The position numbers were made by a program, and so were the translations under genes. The notes beneath the pieces were generated by a model that worked only from the letters and a program-made list of their open reading frames with translations, was not told where the DNA came from and made no database searches. Below are positions 3 to 26,590 of a stretch of DNA of 32,649 nt, piece by piece. Location: contig CALMBD010000156.1 in NCBI GenBank assembly GCA_937861115.1, positions 1 to 32,649 on the forward strand, in the 5' to 3' direction. Numbering within the stretch: position 1 is the stretch's first letter; each line of letters starts with the position of its first letter. The DNA comes from an uncultured Bacteroidota bacterium (lineage in GTDB: Bacteria > Bacteroidota > Bacteroidia > Chitinophagales > Saprospiraceae).

Positions 3-206
3 GCAATAGCCTGCACACTTTGTCCGGCGGGCAAATACAGTGAAATAGAAGGAGCAGTAGAATGTTTGAATTGCGCCGCGGGCTCGTTCAATGCAACCCC
101 CGGCGCAATAGTGTGCACACTTTGCCCGGCAGGTAAATACAGCGACACGGAAGGAGCGGTAGAATGTCTGAGTTGTGCCATTAATACCTACAGTGCCCTC
201 GATGGC
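3..206 (+). repeat. 102-bp in-frame tandem repeat (two visible units)
   Basis: The unit starting at 3 (GCAATAGCCTGCACACTTTG) is repeated at 105 (GCAATAGTGTGCACACTTTG). The period is exactly 102 bp, or 34 codons, and the first ~70 bp of each unit are nearly identical. The unit encodes two half-repeats of about 17 residues with paired cysteines. The first unit begins at the window edge, so more copies may lie upstream. A more diverged Cys-rich stretch follows to about 290. Confidence 0.85.
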
Positions 207-4900: not shown

Positions 4901-7900
4901 GCGTGCTTTCAAATTCACATCCGGCACTGACGAACGTGTCAGTCAACTGATTGAAGACAGCGATGGAAAACTTGCAGGGAGCGGGGTGTTTTCAAATGGT
5001 GGATTGTTGATTGGTTTTACCTTCCGGTATGATCCTTCTTCGGACCAGGTGCTGTGGGCCTTTGAAAATCCATCCAGTCCGCAGACTTTTTACTTTACCA
5101 TGATGGAAAAAACGCCCGGCGGCAATTACCTCGCATTCAATTCTTACCACCAGTCGCCGGCGCCCGGAAGTTTCGATGATGCGCATCTGGTTGAGATAGA
5201 CCGGAATACGGGCCAATATACCGGTTTGAAGACGGCATTTTCCTATGGCAGTTCGGAAGGCGTTCTCGAAGCGCAGATGTACAACGGAAAAATATATGCC
5301 GCCGGGAGGTACACCTATGGAAACGTATTGTCCGGGATGCGGGGCAGCCTCGGTTGCTTCGATGTGCAGGGCAATGAAATATGGTCGCGCATGGCTTTTT
5401 TTGATCCCCAAGCCCAGGCCCGGAATTATGCCACAGATTTTGTGATCGACGCAGGTCACATGATTACGATCTATTACGGCGATTTTGACGGTATAGATGG
5501 CTTTTCCGATCAATTCGCAGTGAGCAAAACCGACCTCAACGGCAATATGGTATGGTCAAAAATATACACAATTGCCGGGTTTCCGATGGTGTATGCCAAG
5601 AGCATCATTGCCATTGCAGACGGGTATATTATCCTGGCCACCAACCAGGCCCTCGACCAGCCGTTGAGTGTTTATTTGATCCGGATCGACAAAAACGGGA
5701 ATCTCGTCTGGGCGAGGGATTACCGCGATATGACGGTATTCCGCGGAGAGAAATTTCTGGTCGCATCGGGCGACTACCTGTACTTTGCGGCAGGCTATAA
5801 TGCTTCCGATATTGCATTGGCCAAAGTGAACCTCAGCGATGGTCTTGTCGGCAGTAATTGCGCCTTGCCGCTGGACCTGACCGTAACAGTACAGGATTTC
5901 AGTACGCTTCTGAGTCCCGTCAATCTGATCAAATACCCCAGCCCGATCATTCAAAGTTCGCGTTTTGTAACGCCGCAGTCGCTCAACCTCGCCACGGAGG
6001 ATATTTGCAAGCAAAATTGCGCCCAGGAAATTTGCAACAACGGCATCGACGACGACGGCGACGGCCTGTTCGATTGCCTCGACCCGGACTGCGATTGCCA
6101 GGCCTGCGACGGAAGCCAGGCCAGATTCTGGTATTTCGGCGATGGTGCAGCGCTTGATTTTTCTTCCGATCCGCCGACGGTGCTGGCCAATGGCGCTACC
6201 TTCAGTCGCGAAGCATCTGCCGTCGCGACCGACATACTCGGCAATTTGTTGTTCTATACAGATGCCCAGACCCTGTATGCCCGCAACCACCAGCCGATGC
6301 CGAATGGCAGCAATCTGGACGGGCATGCTTCCACCACCCAGACCCTGATCCTGCCGGAGCCTGAAAGCCCCGGACGTTTTTATGTTTTTACGCCCAACAG
6401 TTTCGACAACCTGCCCAGTGGCAAAGGGTTATCGTACTCGGTGGTCGACATGTCATTACAAAGCAGTCTAGGCGATGTGCCGGCGGGGCAGAAAAACATC
6501 AGTCTCGTGCCTCAGAACCTGTTTACCGAAAAAATTTCGGCTACACGCCATTGCAACGGCAAAGACTGGTGGATATTGACCAAAGAACGCCAGAACAACC
6601 GATTCCGGGCATACCCGCTTATGGCAGGCGGCCTCGGCACTGCGGCGACTTCAGATATAGGCACCGCCGGCTCAACGGCCCTGCCCAACACGATCGGCTG
6701 CCTCAAATTTAGTCCCAACGGGGAAAAGGTGGTCAATACCCTGTTCAGCACTGGCGGGTTTGAAATATTCGACTTTGATAAAAGCACAGGGCTGCTCTCG
6801 AATGCGGTCACCATTACTGACCCGTCGTTCGGGGGAGCCTATGGGGTGGAATTTTCCCCCGATGGGAAACTGCTTTACCTCACCAACCTGATCGCGCCAT
6901 CTCACATCTGGCAATTCGACCTGACGGCGGGCGACGGAACGGCGATCAGGGCTTCGGCCCTGGTACTGGCCGAATTTCCGGACGAATACCGCTTCGGCCA
7001 GTTGCAGCGCGCGCCGAACAGCAAAATCTATGTCACCAATACCTTCCCGCTACAGTTTACGCCGGGACTGGGTATTATCCACAAGCCCAATATCGCCGGC
7101 ACGGGCTGTCAGTACCAGCAAGGTGGCCTCAACCTGACGCCGGGCAGCGCCAACCTGGGTTTGCCGTCGTTTCCACAGGATTTTCTGGTGAAGTCGATAC
7201 AGGCAGATATTACAGGGCCGGATACGGTTTGTCAGTTGCCCGCCAGCATAGTATACCAGTTGAAGACTGATAACCCTTGCGCACTGGATTCGGTAGCGTG
7301 GTCGCTGAGTGGTCCGGGCACTATTGTTTCCCAATCAAACGATCAAATTGAAATTGCGTTTGCCCAGCCCGGAAGCGTTACGCTCATCGCCACGGCCTTT
7401 ACAGAATGTAGTACGGGAGCAGACACCATGTCGGTTTATCTTGTTGACGATCAAACACCTGTGCTCGATCTGGGGCCCGACATCCTGGTCTGCGACAACG
7501 GGGTGAAAGTATTGCACGCGGGACCGGGGTTTCAAAAATACCGTTGGAGCGACGGCACGACCGATTCCACAACGACGGCGTATTTGTTTGGGAAATACTG
7601 GGTAGATGTCTGGGACCTGTGCGGGAACAAACAGACCGATACTGTAACGATATCGCTGTTGCCCCCCACGGCCCTCGACCTGGGTCCCGACCAGGTCGTC
7701 TGTGCCGGAACCTCGGTGGGTTTCGTGCGACCCGTAATATTCAACTCCTGGATGTGGTTGCCACCAGACGGTCTCGACTGCGACACCTGTAAAACCATAC
7801 ACGCTGCCGTCACCGCCCCGATGACGTATATCGTTATTGCACAAAGCGGGGAGGGGTGTCTTTCCGCCGATACCATCACCCTGCAGATCGTGACGGATAC

Positions 7901-8906
7901 GATTTTCGCCAGCTTCGACACCGTAGTTTGCAGAAATGAAACCCTTTTCATTCTGGGCCATGAACTTGGAGCAGATACCGTTGCCGTTGTTTCCATAATA
8001 ACAGCAGGCGGCTGCGATTCCGTGCTAACCGTGACGGTTACCGGCCTTGATACCGCGTATTCCGAGGTCGAACTGTTTGTTTGCCAGGGGAGTACACTGG
8101 ATGTGTACGGCATTCCTGTCAGCACCGACACCGTGCTGCAATTCATATTTGCCACTGCTAACGGTTGCGATTCCATTGTCCGGGTTGAAGTGAGTGTGCT
8201 TGATACGATACTGAACCAGGTGACTTTGCAGGCATGTCCCGGCGGGTTTGCACTTTACAACGGGGAGGAGATAGCGGTCGGCGAAACGCAGGTGTTCCAA
8301 TTCCCGGTCGGGCAGGCATTCTGTGATTCGACGGTGGTGGTGCAGGTCGTTCCGTTTGCCGTTCCGTTTATTCAATTGCCGGGTATAGACACCATCTTGA
8401 TCGGTGATTCGGTATTGCTGAATCCGACATATAGCGGAAATCCGCCTTTCAGTTGGCAATGGACACCCCTGGCGCCGCCCGATTGGTTGAGTTGTTACGA
8501 TTGCCCTTCACCCCTGGCTAACCCGCTGGTCACAATGTCTTATCAGGTCAGCATCACCGATGGAAACGGCTGCACGGCTGCGGACTCCTCGGTCATTGTT
8601 GTTTTGCCCTGCGGACTGCCGTACGTTCCGAATATCTTTTCCCCCAACGACGATGGTCTCAACGACCGTTTTTACCCGCTCGGCCCGGATTGTATCTCAA
8701 AGGTGCGCTACCTGCGCATTTACGACCGATGGGGCGAGCTGATATTTGAGCGGACCGATTTTCCGCTCAATATCGAGTCGCTCGGATGGGACGGCCGCTA
8801 CCGGGGAAAGCCGCTCGGTCCCTCCGTACTGGTATGGATTGCAGAATTTGAATTTCCGGACAGAACGACGGTGAAAAAATACGGTGACGTAACTTTGATA
8901 AGATAG
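1944..8906 (+). CDS. giant secreted M43-type (pappalysin-like) metalloprotease with PKD, propeller-like and Ig-like domains and T9SS type B tail
   Basis: 2320 residues; ATG at 1944 followed by a signal peptide (cleavage likely after LTA25, before Q26). The zinc site HEMGHYLGLYH is at 228-238, with the downstream Met-turn-like NFMDY at 295-299; this is the M43/metzincin pattern, so a peptidase domain spans about 55-335. Two PKD-like domains follow (about 337-420 and 421-505). Then come two regions of repeated 'LLLKTxPDG.xxWSRxYGG' strands typical of quinoprotein-like propellers (about 506-925 and 931-1350), an Asp-rich Cys loop NNGIDDDGDGLFDC starting at N1365, and a third propeller-like region (WYFGDGAALDF, about 1394-1750). 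Ig/PKD-like domains fill about 1752-2227. The end (FSPNDDGLNDRF from 2232, YDRWGELIF, GWDGRYRGKPLG) is the type B T9SS sorting domain. It is probably released or surface-anchored and degrades extracellular protein; substrate unknown. Unlike four neighbours it lacks the shared dockerin/cohesin-like tail. Confidence 0.88.
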   Translation: MCKLYPPALRTAFACFLFISTRLTAQTDGDFCGSDLVRLLAMQHPEWQQRHNLQEQQAYEYFKNKSAQSSGKPGVQVVTLPVVVHIIHDNGAENIPDAKVLAGIQQLNEAFANSNYYDQGTGANTMIQFCLAKRSADDMASTGITRDQSPLTQMTIELDDIAVKDINRWPPTEYINIWVVREICRLGVGCSVAGYAYLPSSHGGPEDGIMIEAKWLGSSPGNTGVLVHEMGHYLGLYHTFEGGCQNDDCLINGDRVCDTPPDQSTLWVPCDQVVNSCNTDAQSGFPSDQPDMILNFMDYTDFYCFNDFTPGQSDRMHWHIENVRQSLLESKGCENPCPALVTAFFTASANAINVGQTVNFTNGSINASGYTWLIDGVPFSTSANASYTFASTGSFTIGLVADPSDPVLCYSAEYQVVVNVSCPVIADFTVDNINPAVGEAVTVTNQSQNATQYEWFLNGVSQGVSFTGFIPNTVGVYTIRLVATNGFCEKTKSIYLSVRDSCSNVTFQKTWGDAADNRGTYTVLLADGNILAGGTTVLPNNGTDIYLLKTAPDGTTLMQKRYGGPGTDGIRQLLALPDGGWVLVGDNPGPNGPRPLVARFSSGGALLWQKTMNTVDVVNVYTDIIMTQDGNLLLGGAIHTNSTIAFTCILTKLDLNGNTIWSKLYDGSYVDFIQGICELPDGDIAAAGFTNSFGLNLFSIHDGMAMRFSSTGALKWVNAYGSSENEWLTEIFPTSDGGIMTIGATSGWNGPAGGIYMDDGWMIKLGPGGAMEWSEVMRSDQNIDFGVVGAKQTGDGGFVFAGNDLATIGSNTPLLLKTDPMGNIEWSRIYGGQGAGRIVSVDIAPGGYIFAGYTTSAGSPDVWLLKTDEAGFAGLCAEVPHTITTESVQPVLTPGIIATLPSPPLFNATLTVGDLSFSENAPCAPNCTNDTDCESTWIKSAGVANSTEEGSTNLLRASDGNFYISAYRGDSTLLLKMTPDGLVIWTRAFKFTSGTDERVSQLIEDSDGKLAGSGVFSNGGLLIGFTFRYDPSSDQVLWAFENPSSPQTFYFTMMEKTPGGNYLAFNSYHQSPAPGSFDDAHLVEIDRNTGQYTGLKTAFSYGSSEGVLEAQMYNGKIYAAGRYTYGNVLSGMRGSLGCFDVQGNEIWSRMAFFDPQAQARNYATDFVIDAGHMITIYYGDFDGIDGFSDQFAVSKTDLNGNMVWSKIYTIAGFPMVYAKSIIAIADGYIILATNQALDQPLSVYLIRIDKNGNLVWARDYRDMTVFRGEKFLVASGDYLYFAAGYNASDIALAKVNLSDGLVGSNCALPLDLTVTVQDFSTLLSPVNLIKYPSPIIQSSRFVTPQSLNLATEDICKQNCAQEICNNGIDDDGDGLFDCLDPDCDCQACDGSQARFWYFGDGAALDFSSDPPTVLANGATFSREASAVATDILGNLLFYTDAQTLYARNHQPMPNGSNLDGHASTTQTLILPEPESPGRFYVFTPNSFDNLPSGKGLSYSVVDMSLQSSLGDVPAGQKNISLVPQNLFTEKISATRHCNGKDWWILTKERQNNRFRAYPLMAGGLGTAATSDIGTAGSTALPNTIGCLKFSPNGEKVVNTLFSTGGFEIFDFDKSTGLLSNAVTITDPSFGGAYGVEFSPDGKLLYLTNLIAPSHIWQFDLTAGDGTAIRASALVLAEFPDEYRFGQLQRAPNSKIYVTNTFPLQFTPGLGIIHKPNIAGTGCQYQQGGLNLTPGSANLGLPSFPQDFLVKSIQADITGPDTVCQLPASIVYQLKTDNPCALDSVAWSLSGPGTIVSQSNDQIEIAFAQPGSVTLIATAFTECSTGADTMSVYLVDDQTPVLDLGPDILVCDNGVKVLHAGPGFQKYRWSDGTTDSTTTAYLFGKYWVDVWDLCGNKQTDTVTISLLPPTALDLGPDQVVCAGTSVGFVRPVIFNSWMWLPPDGLDCDTCKTIHAAVTAPMTYIVIAQSGEGCLSADTITLQIVTDTIFASFDTVVCRNETLFILGHELGADTVAVVSIITAGGCDSVLTVTVTGLDTAYSEVELFVCQGSTLDVYGIPVSTDTVLQFIFATANGCDSIVRVEVSVLDTILNQVTLQACPGGFALYNGEEIAVGETQVFQFPVGQAFCDSTVVVQVVPFAVPFIQLPGIDTILIGDSVLLNPTYSGNPPFSWQWTPLAPPDWLSCYDCPSPLANPLVTMSYQVSITDGNGCTAADSSVIVVLPCGLPYVPNIFSPNDDGLNDRFYPLGPDCISKVRYLRIYDRWGELIFERTDFPLNIESLGWDGRYRGKPLGPSVLVWIAEFEFPDRTTVKKYGDVTLIR

Positions 8907-9100: not shown

Positions 9101-9130
9101 TTGCGGAAAGATTTGATTGTCCTATTTTGC
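9101..9130 (+). promoter_or_regulatory. possible promoter of the SDR gene
   Basis: TTG at 9101-9103, a 19-nt spacer, then TATTTTGC at 9123-9130, an imperfect match to TAnnTTTG. It sits about 32 nt before the ATG at 9162, a plausible leader length. This placement also argues against the upstream TTG at 9117 as the start, since the -7 box would then be inside the coding region. Confidence 0.3.
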
Positions 9131-9161
9131 TACCCAAAAACATTACTGCATAACGAATTAC

Positions 9162-9902
9162 ATGGACTGGAACAACAAAGTTGCCATCATTACCGGCGCC
9201 GGCACCGGTATCGGAAAAGCCACCGGTGAACTGCTGGAGTCGAAAGGCTGCCGGGTTTACAACCTCGATATAGCCGGATCAGGCGACTCGCCGTATTTTA
9301 TCCACTGCGATGTGCGCGACCGGCAGGCTATCCGCGCGGCTGTACAGGCCGTGCACGACCGCGAACAACGTATTGATTTTCTGTTTTCCAATGCGGGCAT
9401 CCACCTGTTCGCCGGCATTGAGGAGACGACCGACGAAGAGTTTGATAACGTGACGGCCACCAACATACTGGGTACATTTTACCTGTTGCAATCCGTGCTG
9501 CCCCACATGAAGGCGCAGCAAAAAGGCAGCATCGTACTCATGGGGTCCGATCAGTCGTTTGTCGGCAAGGCCCGGAGTGCCGTGTACGGCTTGACAAAGG
9601 GCGCCGTCGGCCAACTCACCAAAAGCACCGCGATCGATTACGCGCCATTCAATATTCGCGTCAACTGTATTTGTCCGGGCACCATCGACACACCGCTGCT
9701 GCACAGGGCCGTGGAGCGCTTCTCCACCCTGAGCACAACACCCAGTGCTGACGTGTACCGCTCGCTCGACGGCATGCAACCGCTGGGCAGGATCGGGCGA
9801 CCCGAAGAGATCGCTTCGGTCGTGGCGTTCCTGTTGTCCGACGACAGTTCGTTCATGACGGGCAGCCTGGTCAGTGCGGATGGTGGCTACGTGTGCCAGT
9901 GA
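9162..9902 (+). CDS. SDR-family NAD-dependent oxidoreductase
   Basis: 246 residues from the ATG at 9162, the usual classical-SDR length. An in-frame TTG at 9117 would add 15 residues with no family counterpart. The cofactor motif TGAGTGIG is at 11-18. The acidic residue D36 at the end of the second strand (VYNLD) suggests NAD(H) rather than NADP(H). NAG is at 77-79, N101 is in the catalytic Asn position, and the catalytic triad is S129, Y142 and K146 (YGLTK). The PG motif is at 172-173 and the C-terminus has the usual MTGSLVSADGG. No signal peptide, so cytoplasmic. The substrate cannot be read from sequence; many close-looking SDRs act on sugar acids, sugar alcohols or 3-hydroxyacyl groups. 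It stands alone between the protease gene and the convergent GH43 gene. Confidence 0.93.
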   Translation: MDWNNKVAIITGAGTGIGKATGELLESKGCRVYNLDIAGSGDSPYFIHCDVRDRQAIRAAVQAVHDREQRIDFLFSNAGIHLFAGIEETTDEEFDNVTATNILGTFYLLQSVLPHMKAQQKGSIVLMGSDQSFVGKARSAVYGLTKGAVGQLTKSTAIDYAPFNIRVNCICPGTIDTPLLHRAVERFSTLSTTPSADVYRSLDGMQPLGRIGRPEEIASVVAFLLSDDSSFMTGSLVSADGGYVCQ

Positions 9903-10026: not shown

Positions 10027-11019
10027 TTATTTTTTCAACCTGTTTTCTGCCACGCCCTCAAACGTAATCGTTACGGGCCTGATATAGCCCCGGTCGTCGA
10101 ACTCCAGTTTGTCGATGCAGGTGACCCGGTGGTTGGGATGTGTTTCGGTAAGCGGACGCCGATGGTAAACGATATACCAGTCGTCCGTCTGCGGCGCCCG
10201 GATCAACGAGTGATGCCCCGCGCCCGTTGCGACGGCCGTATCCTGTTGCAGTACCACGCCGATGCGCTCAAATGGCCCGAAAGGGGTGTCTGCCATGGCA
10301 TACGCCACGCTGTAGTCGGGGCCGCCCCAACCGCCTTCCGACCACATGAAGTAATATTTACCGTTGCGGATAAACATAAAAGGCCCTTCCACATAGCGCT
10401 CCGGCGTGATCTCCCGGAAGATCGTCCCGTCGGCATAGGGTTCGAGTCCGGTAAAATCATCTTTGAGTTTTACGATGTTGCAATGTCCCCACCCACCGTA
10501 GATCATATAGAATTGCCCGTCTGAATCCCGGAACACGAACTGGTCGATGGGTTGGGCGCCGTTGTGGAAAGTGCCGATGAGGGGCTTGCCCAGATAGTCG
10601 GCAAACGGCCCTTCCGGCTTGTCCGATACGGCTACACCGATGCCTCCCTGTTCCTCATCGCTCTGAATGTCGTTTGCTGCAAAGAACAGGAAATATCGCC
10701 CGCCGTTCTGAACAATCGCCGGCGCCCACATTGCCTTGTGCGCCCATTTAACCGCGCCGGTATCCAGGATGTGCGCATGTTTTTCCCAGTGGACCAGATC
10801 CGGGGAGGAAAAGGCATCGAGAAAAACCTGTTTTTCGTAGACGTCGGAAAAAGTGGGGTACACCCAATACTGCATGTCGAATACTACTGCTTCAGGATCG
10901 GCATACCAGCCGGGGAAGACGGGATTTCCGGATGTTTTCTGGGCGGATGCGAGCACGGGAATGGCTGCGATGACCAGAAGCCGGATTAATATGCCTGTAT
11001 ACCATGCGGAAGGTTTCAT
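10027..11019 (-). CDS. secreted glycoside hydrolase family 43 (GH43) enzyme
   Basis: 330 residues with a clear signal peptide (hydrophobic 9-25, cleavage likely after ASA26). It is a single five-bladed-propeller catalytic domain with the GH43 landmarks: general base D41 in GWYADPEAV, MWAPAIV at 97-103, the pKa-modulating Asp at about D159 (PIDQFVFRDSDG), and the general acid E211 in RYVEGPFMF. H269-H270 (GAGHHSL) corresponds to the conserved late His. Family activities include beta-xylosidase, alpha-L-arabinofuranosidase and arabinanase; this sequence alone does not say which. It has no carbohydrate-binding module, no T9SS tail and no dockerin-like segment, so it is probably periplasmic or exported by another route. 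It starts 25 bp downstream of the CDGSH gene on the same strand and is likely co-transcribed with it. Confidence 0.92.
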   Translation of the reverse strand: MKPSAWYTGILIRLLVIAAIPVLASAQKTSGNPVFPGWYADPEAVVFDMQYWVYPTFSDVYEKQVFLDAFSSPDLVHWEKHAHILDTGAVKWAHKAMWAPAIVQNGGRYFLFFAANDIQSDEEQGGIGVAVSDKPEGPFADYLGKPLIGTFHNGAQPIDQFVFRDSDGQFYMIYGGWGHCNIVKLKDDFTGLEPYADGTIFREITPERYVEGPFMFIRNGKYYFMWSEGGWGGPDYSVAYAMADTPFGPFERIGVVLQQDTAVATGAGHHSLIRAPQTDDWYIVYHRRPLTETHPNHRVTCIDKLEFDDRGYIRPVTITFEGVAENRLKK

Positions 11020-11596: not shown

Positions 11597-14290
11597 ATGA
11601 TTAAAAATGGATTACCTGTCCTTTTTTTGTTGCTGGCTGTAGCATTGGCACACGCCCAGTACCCGGAGAGCTTCAGTACCCTCAACAAGGACTACGCCGT
11701 CACAACCGTCAATGATTTTGCGGGCATAGCCTCCACCGGTTGGGCTTCCGGCATGAACAGCGGGGTGGGAACGGACGATGATTTCTGGGCCTCACAGGTT
11801 GCCGGCGGCGCTGTTTCGCCACCTACATGCATGATTGACGGCCCTGATTTTGTTTGCAACAATTCCGCAGGTATTGTGTACACCGCGCCGGCCGGCATGA
11901 GCGGCTACAGCTGGGGTATCATCGGCGACGGATCGATATCGGGCTCCACTACCGGACAGTCGATAACGGTGACATCCGGAAATTATCTCAATAACTATAC
12001 TGTCTCGGTAACGATTACCGATGGTATAGGGGGGACCAGCAGCTGTTCAAAAGTGAGCAATATCTTTCTTGCTAAGCCGCCGGCCAACATCACCGCCAAT
12101 CCGAGCGAGATTTGTCTGGGCGCTACACTGGATCTTTCTATTGCCGCCGCTGCCAGCAGCACGATTTCCTGGACGGGCGAAGGCATCGCCAATCCCGCCG
12201 GCAATCCGTCTACCACTGCAACGCCGACTTCCAGCGGTCCGCATACATATGGCGTAACCGTGACGACCGATCAAGGCTGCTCGAATACGGGTACCGTATC
12301 CGTTGGTGTAAATCCCCTGCCGGTCTGTTCCATCAATGGCCCCGGCGGCTCTAACGATACACTTTGTCAAGGATCTCAATACGTGTTCACGGCGGCTCCC
12401 GGCATGAGCGCCTACAATTGGGGGGTCAGCCCCAACGGCGCCATAATCGGCAGCAATACAGGTTCTTCCGTAACGATTACGCCCAACAGCAGTTCATCTT
12501 TGGTCGTGTTTGTTACCATTACTGATGCCAAAGGCTGTACATCCACTTGCACCCAATTCAGGCCGCTCAACACCGCGCCCACCTGCTCCATGGACGGGCC
12601 GCTTACCGTATGCGGCGGCTCGACGGGTAATGTGTACACCGTCACCACCAATGGAACTTTATACTACTGGAGTATTAGCGGCGATGGCGTTATCACCAGC
12701 CCTGCCAGTGGTTCTCCTTCCGTCACCGTCACCGCCGGGGCCTCCGGTTCGTACACAGTGAGCGTGGGGACGCAGTTCAACTACAATACCTGCGTCCGCA
12801 CCTGCTCTCAGACCGTAACGGTCAACACTGCTCCCGCGCCTGCAATAACCGGACCCGTGTCGGTGTGCCCCGACGGGAGTGCGACGCTCGATGCCGGAGC
12901 AGGCTACACCAGTTACGCCTGGTCGAACGGCGGCGGCAATGCCCAGACGGCTACTTTCAACAACCTGCTGGCAACTACAACCTATACGGTGACGGTAACC
13001 GGCGCCAACGGCTGTACCGGTACAGGCACTTTTACGGTGAACGTCGCATCCTGCACGGTCGACTTTAGCGGCAAAATAGTCTGGGAAAATAATGATACCA
13101 CCGGTGTGAAAGACGCCATCGTCAACCTCGCCGGCTCGGCCAACGGGAGCGACGTGACCGATGTCAATGGCGAATTTTCGATCATGACAGGTGTGCCCAG
13201 CGGCAGTTTTACACTCAAGCCGGTCAAAAACCTCAACAAACTCAACGGCGTAACCACCGCCGACGCTTCTGCCATCCAGCAACACGTTGCGGCCATCTTA
13301 CCAATCACCGACCCCTACAAACTGGTTTGTGCCGACGTGAACAAAAGCAACTCGGTGACATCGCTCGATGCCTCGATTATTATACAGGCCGTCCTCGGCA
13401 ACCCCGCAGCACTCAACCAGTTCAAGACCTCCTGGCGGTTTGTGCCGTCGTCGCACGTCATGCAGAATCCGCCCTGGGGCTTTCCGGAGCAACGCACTTA
13501 CACAAATATCTCCGGCCTGCAAGCCAACCAGAATTTTATCGGGATGAAGACCGGCGATGTGACGGGCAGTGCGAACCCGGCGAATCTGGGCGCCCCTGAA
13601 CCGCTGATGCTGCGCGCCGACGACCGGGTGCTGAGCGCCGGCGAGCAAATCAGCGTCGATTTTGCCGCCGACAAGAAGGCCGGCCTCGCGGCATTTCAAT
13701 ATGCGCTGCGTTTCGACCCGCTGGCACTCGAATTTGTCAGTATTGAACCATTGACCGCACTTCCCCTGACGACCGACAATTTTGGCCTCTTCAACGTGGA
13801 AGACGGCGAAATCAGGGTAGCCTGGGCCCAGCCCACGGGTGTGGATGTCGAAGCCTCGGCGCCGATATTCCGGGTACACTTTAACGCCCTTGCTCCTGGT
13901 GTTTTGCTGAGCGATGTGTTGAAAATCGATCCCGGTGTACTGCCCGGACTGGCCTACACGAGCGCGCTGGAAGAAATGGCGGTAGAGCTGCAATATGGCC
14001 TTGTAACTGGCACCAACACACCCGGAATGGCTGATTTTGCCCTGCTGCAGAACCGCCCCAATCCGTTCAACGGTACGACTACAATCGGTTTTGTGTTGCC
14101 GGCGGCATGTGAGGCCCGGTTGCGTATAGTCGACGTGTCGGGGCGGGTGATAACGGAGCGTACAGCGCAATATCCGGCGGGAACACACGCGGAATTGTTT
14201 GAATTGGATGGCGCGTCGGGTGTTTTGTATTATGAATTGATAACGCCGTTCGGCACTCAGACGAAGCGGATGCTTGTATCGCGGAAATAA
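11597..14290 (+). CDS. secreted Ig/PKD-repeat protein with dockerin/cohesin-like tail and T9SS type A sorting domain
   Basis: 897 residues; ATG at 11597, signal peptide with cleavage likely after AHA20 (before Q21). A short unassigned N-terminal part is followed by about five Ig/PKD-like domains between roughly 75 and 485. Each starts with a Cys-containing 'xxCxIxGPxxxC' strand and ends with a VTVT/VxVN strand (examples: GPDFVCNNS, GPGGSNDTLCQGS, GPVSVCPDGS). From about 489 the shared tail runs for 409 residues: WENNDTTGVKDA, loops NLNKLNGVTTAD (from 545) and DVNKSNSVTSLD (from 580), SWRFVP/PPWGFPE, cohesin-like AFQYALRFDP, and the sorting domain NRPNPFNGTTTIGF from about 816. No catalytic residues are visible. 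Likely a surface adhesin or scaffold: if the cohesin and dockerin readings are right, it is nearly all protein-binding modules. A terminator follows. Confidence 0.9.
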   Translation: MIKNGLPVLFLLLAVALAHAQYPESFSTLNKDYAVTTVNDFAGIASTGWASGMNSGVGTDDDFWASQVAGGAVSPPTCMIDGPDFVCNNSAGIVYTAPAGMSGYSWGIIGDGSISGSTTGQSITVTSGNYLNNYTVSVTITDGIGGTSSCSKVSNIFLAKPPANITANPSEICLGATLDLSIAAAASSTISWTGEGIANPAGNPSTTATPTSSGPHTYGVTVTTDQGCSNTGTVSVGVNPLPVCSINGPGGSNDTLCQGSQYVFTAAPGMSAYNWGVSPNGAIIGSNTGSSVTITPNSSSSLVVFVTITDAKGCTSTCTQFRPLNTAPTCSMDGPLTVCGGSTGNVYTVTTNGTLYYWSISGDGVITSPASGSPSVTVTAGASGSYTVSVGTQFNYNTCVRTCSQTVTVNTAPAPAITGPVSVCPDGSATLDAGAGYTSYAWSNGGGNAQTATFNNLLATTTYTVTVTGANGCTGTGTFTVNVASCTVDFSGKIVWENNDTTGVKDAIVNLAGSANGSDVTDVNGEFSIMTGVPSGSFTLKPVKNLNKLNGVTTADASAIQQHVAAILPITDPYKLVCADVNKSNSVTSLDASIIIQAVLGNPAALNQFKTSWRFVPSSHVMQNPPWGFPEQRTYTNISGLQANQNFIGMKTGDVTGSANPANLGAPEPLMLRADDRVLSAGEQISVDFAADKKAGLAAFQYALRFDPLALEFVSIEPLTALPLTTDNFGLFNVEDGEIRVAWAQPTGVDVEASAPIFRVHFNALAPGVLLSDVLKIDPGVLPGLAYTSALEEMAVELQYGLVTGTNTPGMADFALLQNRPNPFNGTTTIGFVLPAACEARLRIVDVSGRVITERTAQYPAGTHAELFELDGASGVLYYELITPFGTQTKRMLVSRK
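13061..14287 (+). repeat. copy of the shared ~410-residue C-terminal tail module
   Basis: One of four copies in this window (about 525-1751, 13061-14287, 16707-17939 and 24915-26174), given here as the reference. Domain order is the same in all: small beta domain, dockerin-like double loop, Trp-rich linker, cohesin-like domain, T9SS type A sorting domain. Lengths are about 409, 409, 411 and 420 residues. Nucleotides differ mostly at third codon positions within the conserved blocks, so these are old, selected copies rather than recent duplicates. Confidence 0.85.
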
Positions 14291-14801: not shown

Positions 14802-17800
14802 ATGATGAAAGTTCTACGTTTACCCTTCCGCTCAAATGATTCAAGCAGGCAATTTCAGTTCGGCTGTTTACGGAAAAAAGCCTTGTTATTGCTTTGCCTG
14901 GGGTTGGGCTCTACCGTGTTTGCACAATTGAAGGACCCGGCAAGTCACCCCAAATTTGTAAATCCTTTGCCCGATCCGTCTGTCATTGACGCGACTGCCG
15001 GCGGCGATTATTCCATGGAAATGGCCCCTGCAACGCAGTGGCTGGGCCTTGTGGATGTCAACGATGATCCCTTGTACACAAATGTGTGGGGTTATGGCCT
15101 GACCGGTGTCGGCGTCACTTTTCCCGGGCCGACTTTTTGGGCCAAGGAGGGGAATCCTGTTGATGTTACCTGGATCAACAACCTGCCCGATAACCACCTG
15201 CTTCCGATTGATTTGTCCATTCACGTGGCGCACCCGCATACCTGGTTCGGCCATGGTATACCGACCGTAGCGCACTTGCACGGCGGTCATACCGAATCGG
15301 AAAGCGACGGGATACCTGATGCCTGGTTTACCAGAAATAATACCTACAAAGGCCATGATTATGTCAAGGCAAAATACCATTACGACAACGACCAGGAATC
15401 CGCCACGCTTTGGTATCATGATCACGCGCTGGGCATTACCCGCCTGAACGTATACGCAGGTCTTGCAGGATTTTACCTGCTCCGCGACGACAACGAACTG
15501 AGCCTCGGATTGCCCAGTGGGGACTATGAACGGGAAATTGTATTTCAGGACCGGGATTTCGACGAAAACGGACAGTTGATCATGCCGGCCGACGGCGGCT
15601 CGCAGGGGGATTGCCAGGTCGGCGCCGAGGGTGGTCCGTTCGTGAATGAAGAACCGATCATTCCTGAAGCCGAGCAAACCCCGGGAACGCCGAGTGTTAT
15701 GGCCGAATTTTTTGGCAACTATATCATCGTGAACGGTATGACGTGGCCTTACATGAGTGTGGAGCCCCGCCAATACCGCCTGCGCCTGCTCAATGGCTCG
15801 GACTCGCGCTTTTACTTTCTGGAATTACAAAGGGGCGCTTCCGGCGACAGTATTGTAGTACCCATCCTTCAAATCGGAACGGATGACGGCCTGCTGTACA
15901 ACCCGGTAGCGGTCAATCATTTGCTGCTGGCTCCCGGCGAACGCGCCGATATCATTGTGGACTTCACAGGTCTGTCGGTAGGTCCGGGCACGGTACTGAC
16001 CTGGTTCAACTACGGCGCCGACGATCCGTTTGGAGGCGACCCTGAAGGACCTGCAGCAGAAGACCTCGACGACGATCTTACCCGGCCTACCGCCCAGATC
16101 ATGCAGTTTCGTGTCGACCTTCCGTTTAACGGAGGTGTTCCGAATACCAGTTTTAATACAGGCTCCCAGATGCGCGAGAATCCTATCACAATACTGAGTT
16201 CCGGCATTTCCCGCAAACTGGTACTTTTCGAAGGGCGCGATGCGTATTGCCGCCTGCGGCCTCAGTTGGGCATTCTGGATGAAAATTCCTATATCAACGG
16301 TTCACTCATGTGGGACGAACTCATTACCGAGAACCCGGACCTGAATGCCATTGAATACTGGGATATTTACAATACAACGGCAGACGCACACCCCATTCAC
16401 CTGCACCAGGTGACATTTCAGATACTGGACCGCACCACTTTCGACGGCCAGGTCGAATTTATCCCGACGGGTGATCCGATTTCCGGCGGTTCAAAACAGG
16501 TCCTGACACTGAATTCACCGGTGACGTTTGCTCCGGGTTGGGACGCTCCCGACAGGGAAAAAGGCTGGAAAGATACCGGCGTTATCCCGCCAGGCGGCGT
16601 CATGCGCGTGGCGGCCAAATTTGACCTGCCCGGCAAGTACGTTTGGCACTGCCATATCCTGTCGCATGAAGACCACGAAATGATGCGCCCGTTCTGGGTC
16701 GGCCCGATGATGAGCGGCAGGATCATTTGGGAGCACGACGACGCAAGCGGCGTCAATGAAGCCACTGTAAATATCACCGGCGCGGCAACGCACTCGTCCA
16801 GGTCCAACAAGGATGGCATTTACTTCCTTCCCATCGGTCCTGCAGCGGGCGTTTCAACGATCAAACCGGTAAAAAACATCAACAAGTTCAACGGCGTGAC
16901 GGCAGCCGACGCCTCTTCCATTCAGAAGCACGTTGCCAATATTTTCCCGATCACTGATCCGTACAAAATGGTTTGTGCCGACGTCAACAAAAACAACGCT
17001 ATTACTACGCTCGACGCCTCGCTTGTTGTGCAGGCGCTGCTGGGCAACCCGATCGCCAATAGTATTTTCAATACGTCCTGGCGCTTCGTACCCACCGATC
17101 ACGCCATGAGCAATCCGCCATGGGGCTTCCCGGAGCAGCGGACCTATACTGATATCAGCACGAGTTATTCCGATCAGGATTTCTTCGGTATGAAAATCGG
17201 TGATGTGACAGCCACCTATTCCAATCCGGCCAACTTCGGCGGTGTCGCGTCGATGGTGCTAAACGCCGGAGATCAATGGCTGGAGGCGGGTCAACCCCTG
17301 TCTGTGGAGTTTAAAGCCGACCAAATGGATGACCTGACAGCATTCCAGTTCGCTTTGGCCTTCGACCCGTTACAGTTGAAATTCGAGAGCGTCGAGCCCT
17401 TGCAGGGCCTGCCGCTTGCGCCGACCAATTTCGGTACATTTAATGCAGATGCCGGAGAACTCCGGGTCGTATGGGCGGAGGCTGCAAGCTATCAGGTGGA
17501 AGAAGCCGCTCCCGTATTCCGCCTGCATTTCACCGCAATGCAAAGCGGGGCAAAGCTCAGCGATGTACTGAATATGGATGAATCGGTACTGATGAACCGT
17601 GCTTACAACAGTAATCTGGAAGAAACGGCCGTTGAACTGAGGTTTACGGAAGTGACCGGTATCGACAACCCGGAGGCGAACTTCGGTGTACAAATGCTGG
17701 TGCGGCCCAACCCGTTCCGCGACGAGACCACTGTTTCGTTCACCCTGCCCGAGGCCTGCGAGGCACAATTGCGCGTACTGGATGCGAGCGGGCGCGAACT

Positions 17801-17942
17801 GTTGCGCAGCAACAATTCGTACCCTGCCGGAAACAACAGCGAGACGCTGCGGCTGGACGGCAGTTTTGTTACCGGTTTGCTGTATTGCGAGTTGGTAACG
17901 CCGTTTGGAGTGGTGACGCAGAAGATGGTAGCTGCGCGGTAA
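14802..17942 (+). CDS. CotA/bilirubin-oxidase-type multicopper oxidase fused to dockerin/cohesin-like tail and T9SS type A sorting domain
   Basis: 1046 residues. The signal peptide has an unusually long n-region (hydrophobic 26-41, cleavage likely after FA41). Residues about 45-635 form a three-cupredoxin multicopper oxidase with all copper motifs: HLHGG at 158-162, HDH at 206-208, HPIHLHQ at 530-536 and HCHILSHEDHEM at 616-627. Here C617, H530 and H622 are type 1 ligands and M627 is axial. HPIHLH followed by a non-Gly matches CotA and bilirubin oxidases rather than plant laccases. Such enzymes couple one-electron oxidation of phenols, pigments or metals to O2 reduction. From about 636 the shared tail follows directly: WEHDDASGVNEA, NINKFNGVTAAD (from 692), DVNKNNAITTLD (from 727), SWRFVP/PPWGFPE, cohesin-like AFQFALAFDP (848-856) and the sorting domain RPNPFRDETTV (from about 968). 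The enzyme is therefore probably displayed on the cell surface. The active site looks intact. Confidence 0.94.
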   Translation: MMKVLRLPFRSNDSSRQFQFGCLRKKALLLLCLGLGSTVFAQLKDPASHPKFVNPLPDPSVIDATAGGDYSMEMAPATQWLGLVDVNDDPLYTNVWGYGLTGVGVTFPGPTFWAKEGNPVDVTWINNLPDNHLLPIDLSIHVAHPHTWFGHGIPTVAHLHGGHTESESDGIPDAWFTRNNTYKGHDYVKAKYHYDNDQESATLWYHDHALGITRLNVYAGLAGFYLLRDDNELSLGLPSGDYEREIVFQDRDFDENGQLIMPADGGSQGDCQVGAEGGPFVNEEPIIPEAEQTPGTPSVMAEFFGNYIIVNGMTWPYMSVEPRQYRLRLLNGSDSRFYFLELQRGASGDSIVVPILQIGTDDGLLYNPVAVNHLLLAPGERADIIVDFTGLSVGPGTVLTWFNYGADDPFGGDPEGPAAEDLDDDLTRPTAQIMQFRVDLPFNGGVPNTSFNTGSQMRENPITILSSGISRKLVLFEGRDAYCRLRPQLGILDENSYINGSLMWDELITENPDLNAIEYWDIYNTTADAHPIHLHQVTFQILDRTTFDGQVEFIPTGDPISGGSKQVLTLNSPVTFAPGWDAPDREKGWKDTGVIPPGGVMRVAAKFDLPGKYVWHCHILSHEDHEMMRPFWVGPMMSGRIIWEHDDASGVNEATVNITGAATHSSRSNKDGIYFLPIGPAAGVSTIKPVKNINKFNGVTAADASSIQKHVANIFPITDPYKMVCADVNKNNAITTLDASLVVQALLGNPIANSIFNTSWRFVPTDHAMSNPPWGFPEQRTYTDISTSYSDQDFFGMKIGDVTATYSNPANFGGVASMVLNAGDQWLEAGQPLSVEFKADQMDDLTAFQFALAFDPLQLKFESVEPLQGLPLAPTNFGTFNADAGELRVVWAEAASYQVEEAAPVFRLHFTAMQSGAKLSDVLNMDESVLMNRAYNSNLEETAVELRFTEVTGIDNPEANFGVQMLVRPNPFRDETTVSFTLPEACEAQLRVLDASGRELLRSNNSYPAGNNSETLRLDGSFVTGLLYCELVTPFGVVTQKMVAAR

Positions 17943-18362
17943 TGGCCGGAAATGCCATGTAAATCTGCGTCGATCCGGGTATGGATCACGATTTGCCTGC
18001 ACAGGTAATGTGGCGGATGCCGGGATCGACGCAGATATTTTTGATAGTAACATGAGTCAGAATGGCCATCGCTAATTGCCTCTTCTCCTATTGGACCCTA
18101 AATTCGGGATGAGTCACGCGAATCAGGGGTTGATTCTAAAGGATGCACGGGCCACACAGTTGATTGCAGATGCCATCGTCTTAAGGTCAAGGCAGGGTAC
18201 GCAGTTTACTGGCGGCGCAACCTGAAAAAGGGACTAAATATCATGTATTTCTATTATACATATTTTAAGCTCCAGAAAGAATGCGCGATATAACAAATGC
18301 AGTTGATCTTTATGGCGATTATTGACCACCATAAAGAGTTAATCAACACTTTTACCCGTCTT
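17943..18362. other. intergenic region before the 2604-residue protein gene
   Basis: 420 bp. It starts with the terminator described separately. From 18057 to 18362 no gene, RNA or clear promoter was recognised; 18240-18290 is AT-rich and the likely promoter area. An in-frame ATG at 18297 would add 22 residues before the signal peptide and is not preferred. Confidence 0.5.
17963..18043 (+). terminator. terminator hairpin after the multicopper oxidase gene
   Basis: ATCTGCGTCGATCC (17963-17976) pairs perfectly with GGATCGACGCAGAT (18023-18036), a 14-bp stem with a 46-nt loop, followed by ATATTTTTG. It begins 20 nt after the stop codon. Confidence 0.7.
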
Positions 18363-21300
18363 ATGAAAAGGTTTTTCCGATTTTATGCTTTAACACTGAC
18401 ACTGACATTTCTTTCAACCGGCACATTTGCGCAAAACAAAAGTTGGCTGGTAAAAATGCAAGACCCGGACGTCAATTTCTGGGAACTTCAAAAAGAGTTC
18501 AACGATTACTGGAAAGACCGCACCGACTACAAAGGCAACGGCTACAAGGTATTCAAACGCTGGGAGTATATCAATGAAACCCGCGTTTTGCCGGACGGAA
18601 AACTGCAACCGGCGGATTATGTCCTGAAAGAATATGAGAAGTATATGGCAGAAGCCGCGCAGCTCAAATCGGCTTCGGGCACCTGGAGTATCGTTGGGCC
18701 GACAATCTATCCGACAAATAATACGGGCCAGCCTACCGGCAAGGGAAGGGTAAATGTCATTACTTTCCATCCAACCGACGTCAATACACTGTTCATCGGC
18801 GCTCCTTCGGGCGGTATTTGGAAAAGCGTTAACGGCGGCGCCAACTGGACCAATCTTTCTGCCAATATTCCCTATCTCGGGGTATCTGCCATCCTGATAG
18901 ATCCTTCCAATCCGGATATTATTTACATAGGCACCGGCGACCGGGATTCGGATGACGCACCGGGCGTTGGCGTTTACAAATCCACAGACGGAGGCGTTTC
19001 CTGGGTCCCCATGAATGTAGGCATGGGCAATACAACGGTGGGTATGATGCTGATGCATCCTTCTGATCCGAATACCATTCTCGCTGCTACGTATACCGGT
19101 ATCTTTAAAACCACGAACGGAGGTGTAACCTGGTCGCAAACCCTGGCCGGCGACTTCAGGGACATCAAATTCAAGCCCGGCAACCCCGATGTCGTATATG
19201 CCACCAGAATCATTACGCCGGCACAATATTATCGCTCTACCGATAACGGGACTACATGGGGGCAGGTCACCACGCCTGTTTCCGGTGTCGGTTCCCGTAT
19301 GGTCATCGGCGTTTCACCGGCCAATCCCGACTATGTATACCTGGTTCAGATCAAAAGTTCAGACGCGAATTTTAAAGCCTTGCTCCGGTCTGTTGACAGT
19401 GGGCTTACCTTTACCGAGCAGTCTAACGCTCCAAATATCTTCGATTATCTCTGCGACGGGAGTGGTACTGCCAGTCAGGCGACGTACGATCTGATTATCG
19501 ACGTCGACCGCACCAACGCTGAAATTGTCTATGTCGGCTCTATCAACAGCTGGAAAAGTGTTAACGGCGGGGTAACATGGTCGCCGGTAACACACTGGGT
19601 CGGAAGCAACTTTGCACCCGGAAACCCAACGGCAAATTGTGCAGTATCTGTACACGCCGACCACCACTGGTACCAGTGGTCTCCGTTGCACAGCCCTGCA
19701 AGGTTGTACCTCGGCCACGACGGCGGCATTGCGTATACCGCCGACGGCGGCACAACCTGGACAGACATCACCACCGACCTCGCTATCGGCCAGGTGTATA
19801 AAGTTGGCCAAAGTGCGCAGACTGCGAATAATATCATTGCAGGGTTTCAGGACAACGGGGTTTCTGCCACCAACGACGGGGTCAATTTTACCACAGTAGG
19901 CGGGGGCGATGGTGGTGAGTGCGCCATCAATTACAATAATGCCAATTTTTGTTACAGGGAATCGCAGTTGGGCAATCTAACGCGTTCCTCGGCCGGTCTG
20001 TTCGGTTCGTATTCCAATATTATTTCCGCTATTAATGATCAAGCGGCATTTATTGCGCCCTACATGCTCCACAGGACTAATCCGGGTACCATGTTTTTTG
20101 GACGCGAAAACGTATGGCGCAGCACAAATGTCGATGCCATTCCATCCGGTTCGGTGACATGGGAAACCATCAGTTCCTTTGCCGCAGGCACAACCATCCG
20201 GGTTGTGGAACAGTCTCCGGCAAATCTGAATATCGTATATATTTCCAGAGGGTCCGGTTCAGGATCTGCGATGTACCGATCAGACAACGCCAACGCCGCC
20301 GCCAATGCCGTGGTTTGGAATGCCATAACCAAGCCCGGCGGGCTGACGGCGACCGATATTAAAGCGCACCCCGTCAATGAAAATATTGTGTTTGCTACTG
20401 CCGGCATGCAGGTTTTCAAATCGACAGACAAGGGCTTAACCTGGGCAGACATCACCGGTAATCTGCCGGCATTGTTTATCAATTGTTTGGTACTCGATAA
20501 GGACGCCAACGAAGGCATCTATATCGGCAACCAAACCGGTGTATGGTACAAAGACGCCGATATTACCGAGTGGGTATTGTTCAGTTCCGGTTTGCCGCCG
20601 GTGGATGTGCGGGAACTGGAAATCTACTACGATGCCAATCCCGACAACAGCCGCATTACCGCTTCCACCTATGGCCGCGGGATTTGGCAAAGTGACCTGA
20701 TTGAAGTCAATGCCATCAATCCGTCCGGTCTGGCCGCTGTAGCTATCAGCACCACCCAAATTGATCTCTCCTGGACGCTCAACGCATCGAATAACAACGT
20801 GCTCATTGCCACTTCTCCGACCACTATCTTCGGAGTACCGGTGGACGGTACGGCATATACCGCCGGTAATTCCCTTCCGGGTGGCGGAACGGTCATTTAC
20901 GTGGGCAACATGGTTAATTTTAGCCATACCGGACTTACCGCAGGTTCTGACTATTGTTACAAGATATGGTCTGTTAACGGCAGTAATCAATACTCGGCAG
21001 GCCTGCCGCCTGTTTGCGCCAGAACATTCTCGCACAACTGGACCGGTAATGTCAACACCGATTGGTTCAATGCAGGAAACTGGGGCCCTGGTACCGTGCC
21101 GACGATTTTGGATGGCGCCTATATTCCGGCCGGCCGGCCAAACTACCCGTTGATTAATGCCGCAGGGGCCAGGTGTTCGCACCTGACCATCGAACCCGGC
21201 GCCTCGGTAAGCATGGATGCATCAACATCCTACATCCTTCAGGTATCGGGAGACTGGATAAATAATGGGACGTTTAACCGCGGTGTCGGTACGGTTGAGT

Positions 21301-26196: not shown

Positions 26197-26230
26197 AAAC
26201 CGTCCCTTAAGGGCTTTCAGACGGTTTTTT
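26197..26230 (+). terminator. rho-independent terminator after the 2604-residue protein gene
   Basis: AAACCGTC (26197-26204) pairs with GACGGTTT (26220-26227), an 8-bp stem with a 15-nt loop, running into a T-tract that ends at 26230. It begins 19 nt after the stop codon. Confidence 0.75.
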
Positions 26231-26302
26231 AGTGGTGGCACACGGGTATTTCCTTCCTGTTTTCTGCGGAAAACAGGAAGGAAATACCCGTGTGCCACCA
26301 CT
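26231..26302. repeat. perfect 34-bp inverted repeat with 4-nt loop
   Basis: The left arm 26231-26264 begins AGTGGTGGCACACGGGTATT and ends CCTGTTTTC. The right arm 26269-26302 is its exact reverse complement, and the loop is TGCG. All 34 pairs are Watson-Crick, which is unusual for a chance or merely terminating hairpin. It abuts the T-tract of the preceding terminator. The 5' arm contains GTGG, the tetranucleotide typical of REP elements, but no transposase is nearby and no second copy was seen in the window. Confidence 0.93.
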
Positions 26303-26590
26303 TGGCGAGCTCATTTCCCGGATTTTCATTTGGACTAACAAAGAGCTGCCTTCCTTGACAACGGCCTTTTTACTTCACCGCGCCGTTTTCCCGGTTCACT
26401 TCAAACCGCCGGGCATTTCACTGTTTTTCGCTGGCCAATAAGTGTCTGCAGGCTGTAAATTGGGTCTGTTCATTGGATAGTAATAGCCCGATACCGCAAA
26501 CAGGGTGCTGAAAGTAGTTGGTTACTGGGCAGGCGTGTGTGCGGCGACGCGCGGCGTCTGCCTGATTTTCTTCACTATAATTGTTGAGCC

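Follow-up and report, generated by a model that had tools for sequence, protein, structure and literature searches.

Why should four proteins with unrelated front ends all finish in the same C-terminal tail of about 410 residues? They are encoded in a stretch of 32,649 nt from an uncultured Saprospiraceae bacterium (assembly GCA_937861115.1, contig CALMBD010000156.1, forward strand), which is called the window in the following. Based on sequence comparisons and a structure model, we lean towards the view that the tail is the cargo end of a cohesin-dockerin assembly system that is exported by the type IX secretion system (T9SS) and that would be cellulosome-like in its logic, the binding itself being inferred.

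A common C-terminal tail with one domain order had been described for the four proteins in an earlier note on this DNA, and the reading frames and coordinates given there are correct. The tails are co-linear from end to end, those at 13061-14287, 16707-17939 and 24915-26174 being 50, 52 and 46% identical to the tail at 525-1751 that served as reference, and this alignment bears the description out. The motifs quoted in that note hold as consensus strings, but they are not identical across all four tails: GVKDA is exact in two of them, with GVKDV and GVNEA in the remaining two, and PPWGFPE is exact in two of four. Searched with a profile built from the four tails, the genome yields those four, by construction, with E-values of at most 1.3e-213, and then a further copy at E 2.5e-185. 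Absent from the earlier note are the dockerin and the cohesin among the tail modules, which were found by Pfam, PDB profile and own-profile searches. As judged from these matches and from the model, the tail begins with a CarboxypepD_reg-like beta-sandwich into which a type I dockerin seems to be inserted, continues with a cohesin (T-type) and ends in a type A T9SS sorting domain, and it is thus a new arrangement of known parts. The modules are placed as follows.

525-668 (+): tail 1, first half of the CarboxypepD_reg/CnaB-like sandwich (alignment; strands taken from the tail 2 model)
669-866 (+): tail 1, dockerin (PF00404 E 1.8e-5, over cut-off; Pfam genome search; own profile)
867-1064 (+): tail 1, cap, probable last sandwich strands (own profile; model)
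1065-1466 (+): tail 1, T-type cohesin (PF00963 E 2.4e-4, below the curated cut-off; own profile)
1476-1751 (+): tail 1, T9SS type A sorting domain (alignment to the other three; Por_Secre_tail just E 0.061)
13061-13207 (+): tail 2, first half of the CarboxypepD_reg/CnaB-like sandwich (model strands E2-8 to E47-55)
13208-13405 (+): tail 2, dockerin (PF00404 E 2.3e-4, narrowly under cut-off; genome search 27.6 bits, which passes it; helices 66-76, 85-91, 101-111)
13406-13600 (+): tail 2, cap with SWRFVP..PPWGFPE..GDV (model strands 125-129, 145-151, 159-163)
13601-14002 (+): tail 2, T-type cohesin (PF00963 E 2.9e-6, over cut-off; Foldseek cohesins)
14012-14287 (+): tail 2, T9SS type A sorting domain (TIGR04183 23.1 bits, cut-off 23)
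16707-16853 (+): tail 3, first half of the sandwich (alignment, own profile)
16854-17051 (+): tail 3, dockerin (PF00404 E 3.8e-4, under cut-off; cut-off passed in the genome search)
17052-17249 (+): tail 3, cap (own profile)
17250-17654 (+): tail 3, T-type cohesin (PF00963 E 1.5e-4, under cut-off in the protein scan; cut-off passed in the genome search)
17661-17939 (+): tail 3, T9SS type A sorting domain (TIGR04183 26.3 bits)
24915-25067 (+): tail 4, first half of the sandwich (alignment, own profile)
25068-25274 (+): tail 4, dockerin (PF00404 E 2.2e-4, narrowly under cut-off; cut-off passed in the genome search)
25275-25478 (+): tail 4, cap (own profile)
25485-25889 (+): tail 4, T-type cohesin (no Pfam match; alignment to the other three; own profiles, tail 4 being among their members, give 222 and 128 bits)
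25896-26174 (+): tail 4, T9SS type A sorting domain (TIGR04183 25.3 bits)

In the Pfam scan of the window proteins, Dockerin_1 is matched in all four tails and Cohesin in three of them; in the Pfam search of the genome the cut-off is passed by all four window dockerins and by two of the four cohesins. A profile of 58 tails, run against the PDB sequences, finds the ScaB dockerin 4uyq_B (E 1.9e-6), the ScaB cohesin 4ums (E 1.3e-6) and the NagJ cohesin 2jh2 (E 2.3e-3). The AlphaFold2 (AF2) model of tail 2, with a predicted local distance difference test score (pLDDT) of 92.3 and a predicted template modelling score (pTM) of 0.73, has three parts joined by low-confidence linkers and runs in the order of five strands, dockerin helices, three strands, linker (173-177), cohesin sandwich, linker (316-323) and sorting domain; Foldseek searches with this model match cellulosomal cohesins, the NagJ cohesin 2w1n being the top match. 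In three own-genome proteins a PF13620 match, below cut-off, ends at model position 52-53 of 82 where the dockerin starts (spans 1-53 or 3-52), and in the model of tail 2 strands resume after the dockerin, the rest of the PF13620 sandwich being seen in the model alone. Because of this stop and this resumption the dockerin appears to be inserted in a carboxypeptidase-regulatory-like sandwich, of which the SWRFVP..PPWGFPE..GDV stretch probably forms the closing strands.

Both putative calcium F-hand repeats of the dockerin could be aligned across 100 dockerins, and repeat 2 is canonical, with D1 in 100, N3 in 91 and D12 in 100 of them. The two repeats of one dockerin agree at 6.0 of 16 positions, compared with 5.1 between sequences and 1.5 after shuffling, so that at the sequence level a repeat symmetry exists of which little is molecule-specific. 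Recognition dyads were found by pattern matching in 40 of 107 cases for repeat 1 and in 95 of 107 for repeat 2, and no clean specificity code emerged when the dyads were redone on the alignment of 100 dockerins. With respect to export, TIGR04183 is over its cut-off in three of the four window tails, the fourth type A domain being assigned by alignment, and a PorU sortase is encoded (1216 bits). The possibility that the tail is a T9SS signal only was considered and rejected, since the sorting domain makes up just its last fifth.

The front ends had been named in the earlier note as Cys-rich/SprB, Ig-like, multicopper oxidase and Asp-box propeller. Pfam confirms these names, and among the four window proteins BLAST with low-complexity masking finds no related front-end pair at E<1e-5.

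3-524 (+): front end 1, Ephrin_rec_like Cys-rich repeats and SprB, gene cut at the window start (Pfam)
11597-13060 (+): front end 2, four PKD_6 stretches and Ig_7 (Pfam)
14802-16706 (+): front end 3, multicopper oxidase, Cu-oxidase_2/_3 (Pfam, over cut-off)
18297-24914 (+): front end 4, Sortilin-Vps10/Asp-box propeller, then Ig-like domains (Pfam, NCBIfam)

The nearest NCBIfam models of front end 3 are PhsA and CueO, both below cut-off, and the best NCBIfam name of the propeller protein is a glycosylhydrolase family, also below cut-off.

A census of the own genome covered the window and 20 fetched stretches, on contigs picked from tail-profile, Pfam cohesin and Pfam dockerin matches, and counted 25 dockerins and 37 cohesins. 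At least 22 proteins on 17 contigs carry a dockerin and then a cohesin (the one at L047 being cut by the contig end), which amounts to 22 of the 25 dockerins, and five further frames have a cohesin only, one of them a contig-end fragment. The proposal that a whole multi-domain tail is reused, beyond the sorting signal, is therefore upheld by at least 22 instances in the own genome, and the tail profile has its best match at E 1.4e-56 or better in each of 37 genus genomes, the span being seen among the matches listed and the weakest of them being judged by E-value alone. The finding of tails on 17 contigs, across the genus and in other genera also led us to discard a local duplication of the four genes. 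Two dockerin proteins end directly after the dockerin cap, without cohesin or sorting domain; one of them (L055:4787-5803, minus strand) has a GSSGSP motif that we take to be serine-protease-like, and the other (L052:4355-5377, plus strand) is short and looks secreted. On 19 of the 25 dockerin proteins of the own genome domains were assigned (Pfam E<=0.1 or 0.05), among them HYR, PKD/Ig, SprB, multicopper oxidase and Vps10. At the same thresholds no carbohydrate-binding module (CBM), no Pfam glycosidase or cellulase and no S-layer homology (SLH) domain was found on these 19 proteins, and a ChitinaseA_N match (E 0.006) was the single sub-threshold one; an alpha-amylase domain is borne by one relative in the genome G009. 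A cellulosome proper was discarded, as no glycoside hydrolase (GH) or CBM cargo is present on the 19 proteins scanned.

Multi-cohesin proteins with a second type of cohesin are also encoded in these genomes. Three cohesins and a CHU_C type B signal are found in the proteins at L039 236-5014 (minus strand, with SprB repeats) and at L040 3532-8355 (minus strand, with HYR repeats). Pfam itself counts two and three cohesin stretches in them, respectively; CHU_C is over cut-off in both and TIGR04131 in one of the two. The protein at L041 654-10151 (minus strand) has four leading cohesins, a fifth that precedes the dockerin, and the tail, and the one at L039 4882-5706 (minus strand) combines one cohesin with a type A domain. 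In six genus-mates Pfam finds 7 to 29 cohesins per genome. Scaffold loci were opened in six genomes (G000, G005, G009, G011, G022 and G035), type B signals being checked in the two own-genome scaffolds only, and our own profile detects three-cohesin proteins in all six.

The gene neighbourhood of these proteins recurs in two cassettes. In one, which is present in six of six opened genomes, a gene for a cohesin-dockerin-cap-cohesin-type A protein is followed by genes for a three-cohesin protein, PorP/SprF and a PorE-like protein. In the other, termed cassette A and likewise present in all six, a gene for a cohesin with a type A domain precedes the three-cohesin gene; PorP/SprF comes next in five genomes, the contig of G000 ending in the sixth, and a tailed gene is next in four. 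Taken together, PorP/SprF adjoins the scaffold in 11 of 12 cassettes, and the twelfth lies at the contig end. PorP/SprF is over cut-off by both Pfam and NCBIfam in L040, L157 and L158, from which the others were identified by phmmer, and the gene after it in L040 and L158 encodes an OmpA/SPOR protein for which CHU_0125_OmpA and T9SS_PorE score best among the NCBIfam models, both below cut-off. Since an association with PorP-like proteins has been reported for type B proteins (PMC9143113), the three-cohesin proteins are likely surface-held hubs.

The cohesins of the tails and those of the multi-cohesin proteins (S-type) can be told apart. In a tree of 183 distinct cohesins (97 tail cohesins and 86 others), in which many forks are unresolved, its 137 columns being few, the separation of tail and other cohesins takes 5 changes compared with a mean of 60.8 after shuffling, none of 500 shuffles being as low, with the reservation that near-copies favour such clustering. 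A third group is formed by the cohesins that stand just before a tail dockerin, ten of ten of which fall together with a Shimodaira-Hasegawa-like approximate likelihood ratio test (SH-aLRT) support of 82; they are found in L040, L041, L158, L160, L164, L166, L168, L170, L172 and L089, in frames of 2789 to 3166 aa where uncut by a stretch end. T-type and S-type both keep a Gln (98% and 86%), a G (90% and 93%) and a W (74% and 86%). The S-type profile finds the PDB cohesin 1g1k at E 4.8e-10, and an S-type cohesin modelled alone (AF2 pLDDT 86.8) matches CaCohA2 from a cohesin-dockerin complex with a Foldseek TM of 0.75. PDB cohesins are matched more strongly by the S-type profile than by the tail profile, a comparison that is rough as the profile depths differ.

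Outside the genus, 20 of 23 same-order genomes match the tail profile, the best at 3.7e-33 and none of the rest more strongly than 1e-14; matches of this kind could come from the sorting domain by itself. A core profile matches 44 of 395 phylum genomes at 1e-6. Near full-length matches (E 1e-45 or better) are found in family f1 (the own genome and four of five others) and in G272 and G130 of the same class, and weaker ones that span most of the profile in G407 (3.7e-26) and G109 (2.3e-9). Of the five f1 genomes from other genera, four combine tails with at least three S-profile cohesins in a single frame; in the remaining one, G236, the tail is absent and the S-type profile gives a single weak match (E 0.0055). 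In family f37, with 19 genomes, the core matches listed cover only dockerin and cap. Several f37 genomes, including G342, G271 and G306, have many nested dockerin-cap modules without detectable cohesins, several of the matches containing an in-frame stop, and G342 gave 135 dockerin candidates at first look. By Pfam, cohesin and dockerin each occur in 110 of the 395 genomes, with both in 77, cohesin only in 33, dockerin only in 33 and neither in 252 (odds ratio of 17.8, kinship not corrected for), and the phylum search also finds cohesin without other tail parts in some genomes. Among the matches listed, at least 23 genomes of other classes have, as counted by eye, cohesin and dockerin in one frame in either order, for example G435:C7, G317:C25, G128:C7 and G258:C33. 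One protein with both modules is thus common in the phylum, and this particular tail is special to the family. The 55 loci of named relatives comprise 39 titled Saprospiraceae, 14 from other Bacteroidota and two titled Thermoanaerobaculia; the latter (L075 and L077, MAG.385) bear the tail at 48 and 45% identity and may be misbinned contigs or the result of a transfer.

The window contains further genes beside the tailed ones. Between tailed genes lies the one for an M43 metallopeptidase of 2320 aa that bears a CHU_C type B sorting domain (1944-8906), and a short-chain dehydrogenase (9117-9902, plus strand), a family 43 glycoside hydrolase (GH43; 10030-11019, minus strand), a leucine-rich-repeat protein (26591-27211, plus strand) and a beta-helix/NosD-like giant whose frame continues past the window end (28089-32648, plus strand) are also encoded. 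By eye, a long inverted repeat at about 26230-26305, directly 3' of the fourth tailed gene, is perhaps a terminator.

In the mechanism that we propose, the tailed proteins would be exported by the T9SS, and PorU would then cleave after the cohesin and remove the type A domain, as is expected from the family. The cleaved proteins would either stay on the surface or be released, and their dockerins would plug, in a calcium-dependent manner, into the S-type cohesins of PorP-held scaffold proteins. Such docking would cluster enzymes and adhesins, and the T-type cohesin would remain on each cargo as a stalk or second-tier socket. That the tail dockerins bind the three-cohesin proteins is what we infer from module identity, gene neighbourhood and shared presence. 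An extension that we regard as doubtful pictures a self-assembling outer surface coat of dozens of unrelated T9SS-exported proteins, in which the tail is both plug and socket: every cargo protein could be bound by a three-cohesin hub that PorP holds and could itself take up a further cargo, and the resulting branched lattice, switchable by calcium, would be tied to type IX secretion and the gliding apparatus.

Several observations weigh against a cohesin-dockerin assembly system with the tail as its cargo end. In the scan of the window proteins the curated Pfam cut-off is passed by a single dockerin and a single cohesin out of four each, and the calcium loop of dockerin repeat 1 is not canonical, 59 of the 100 aligned dockerins having Leu at its position 5. 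Three own-genome proteins carry dockerin and cap without a cohesin, in cassette A the scaffold lacks a neighbouring tailed gene in two of six genomes, and the evidence from gene neighbours and co-occurrence is confounded by relatedness. In the f37 family an S-type cohesin was not found in any of the eight genomes tested (of 19 with dockerin-cap matches), and at 1e-4 Pfam finds a cohesin in just a single genome of this family; the dockerin there would do something else or bind an undetected partner. Because sorting should by itself attach type A proteins, a second tether also looks redundant, an objection that would be answered if the system served clustering rather than anchoring. Finally, the parts of the tail occur apart elsewhere, as dockerin and cap in f37, as cohesin-only genomes and as dockerin-free multi-cohesin S-type proteins. 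The domains thus form a nearly fixed unit in the own genome (22 of 25), but separate in others. The earlier idea of a single surface display or assembly device accordingly survives in its assembly part, which is the natural reading because the tail carries dockerin and cohesin modules, but not as a single self-contained device, and the tail is more aptly described as a component within a cohesin-dockerin system.

The same modules permit other explanations. The tail dockerin could plug into the T-type cohesin of the next protein, so that a surface-coat polymer would form with the multi-cohesin proteins as branch points. Dockerin and cohesin do share one tail in 22 of 25 dockerin proteins, the genus matches listed span both, the T-type keeps the Gln (98%) and the G, W and F positions common to the S-type with overlapping Pfam scores of the two types, and the linkers at 173-177 and 316-323 (pLDDT under 50) could let the modules reach a neighbour. 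However, the T-type forms clades of its own and matches PDB cohesins less well (roughly compared, given the different profile depths), which could mean a changed role, and freshly exported self-associating proteins would need control, and we consider such a polymer unlikely. That dockerin and cohesin are merely calcium-stiffened spacers, or an intramolecular clamp, between front end and outer membrane and do not join proteins would fit the f37 genomes with their dockerin and cap but no detectable cohesins, the non-canonical repeat 1 and the reported self-anchoring of type A proteins (PMC9143113). This stalk would leave unexplained why multi-cohesin proteins of a second type lie beside tailed and PorP/PorE-like genes in six of six genomes, and why cohesin and dockerin are associated across the 395 genomes (77 with both, 33 with cohesin alone, 33 with dockerin alone, 252 with neither), and it appears to us distinctly unlikely. 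Very improbable is a T9SS sorting tail that has expanded locally through paralogy and has no assembly function: the four window tails are clustered and similar tail clusters occur in G007 and G009, but the 22 tails on 17 contigs, the 37 of 37 genus genomes and the other genera of the family speak against it.

In the clostridial cellulosome, a scaffoldin provides cohesins for enzyme-borne dockerins and is itself held by anchoring scaffoldins. The system proposed here shares with it the dockerin-bearing cargo, multi-cohesin proteins, single-cohesin exported proteins and more than one cohesin type, and the tail and S-type profiles as well as the cohesin folds match its modules. It differs in the export by the T9SS, in the presence of dockerin and cohesin on the same cargo, in the dockerin apparently lying inside a beta-sandwich, in the lack, on the 19 tailed proteins scanned, of any SLH domain, CBM or Pfam cellulase, and presumably in the anchoring by type B signal and PorP instead of SLH. 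The NagJ cohesin of Clostridium perfringens (2jh2/2ozn/2w1n) pairs with a dockerin on another carbohydrate-active enzyme; it is likewise non-cellulosomal and provides both the top Foldseek match (2w1n) and a profile match (2jh2, E 2.3e-3), but is part of a Gram-positive carbohydrate-active enzyme.

Cohesin-dockerin systems outside Clostridia and module counts in Bacteroidetes are already known. The closest precedent that we found is the cellulosome-like complex predicted for Candidatus Stygibacter (Cloacimonadota), in which a scaffoldin-like protein has a conserved C-terminal surface-attachment domain, so that a predicted cohesin-dockerin system with C-terminal surface attachment is common to both (PMC8542988). 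It belongs to another phylum, its dockerin enzymes are GH18, GH57 and peptidases, its one scaffoldin of 3,755 aa carries CBMs, and no shared dockerin-cohesin tail is described in the parts of that report dealing with the complex (PMC8542988). In a seagrass metagenome 65.7% of the cellulosome modules were assigned to Bacteroidetes, with cohesin genes in two Bacteroidetes metagenome-assembled genomes (PMC8547425), and dockerin matches were reported in Alistipes, Bacteroides and another Bacteroidales (PMC10266427). In the relevant sections of both papers these are annotation counts, with no tail or cassette described, and PMC8547425 has SLH domains rather than the T9SS. Proteins of anaerobic methanotrophic (ANME) archaea are also non-cellulosomal and some carry a dockerin with several cohesins, but these are archaea with other cargo such as ATP-binding cassette (ABC) transporter binding proteins (PMC9012536). 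The SprB/SprF and PG1035/PorP/PorE complexes join a type B C-terminal domain protein to PorP-like and PorE partners, as the three-cohesin neighbourhood suggests here, while the account of these complexes in PMC9143113 mentions no cohesin or dockerin. In the open-licence literature mentioning dockerin or cohesin, subscription papers being outside the search, we found neither this tail nor a cohesin-dockerin system of Saprospiraceae described; Saprospiraceae and dockerins are both named in one paper and, in its passages on them, are not tied together (PMC8547425).

Saprospiraceae are abundant in wastewater (PMC9304909, in the text of which neither dockerin nor cohesin appears), and in this family cohesin-dockerin modules are here joined to T9SS export. 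If the proposed binding is true, the system would be a Gram-negative surface assembly platform, the reuse of the whole tail would be explained, and cohesin-dockerin pairs able to function on the surface of a diderm would be available. The cells may then build up their outer surface from exported proteins that plug into one another.

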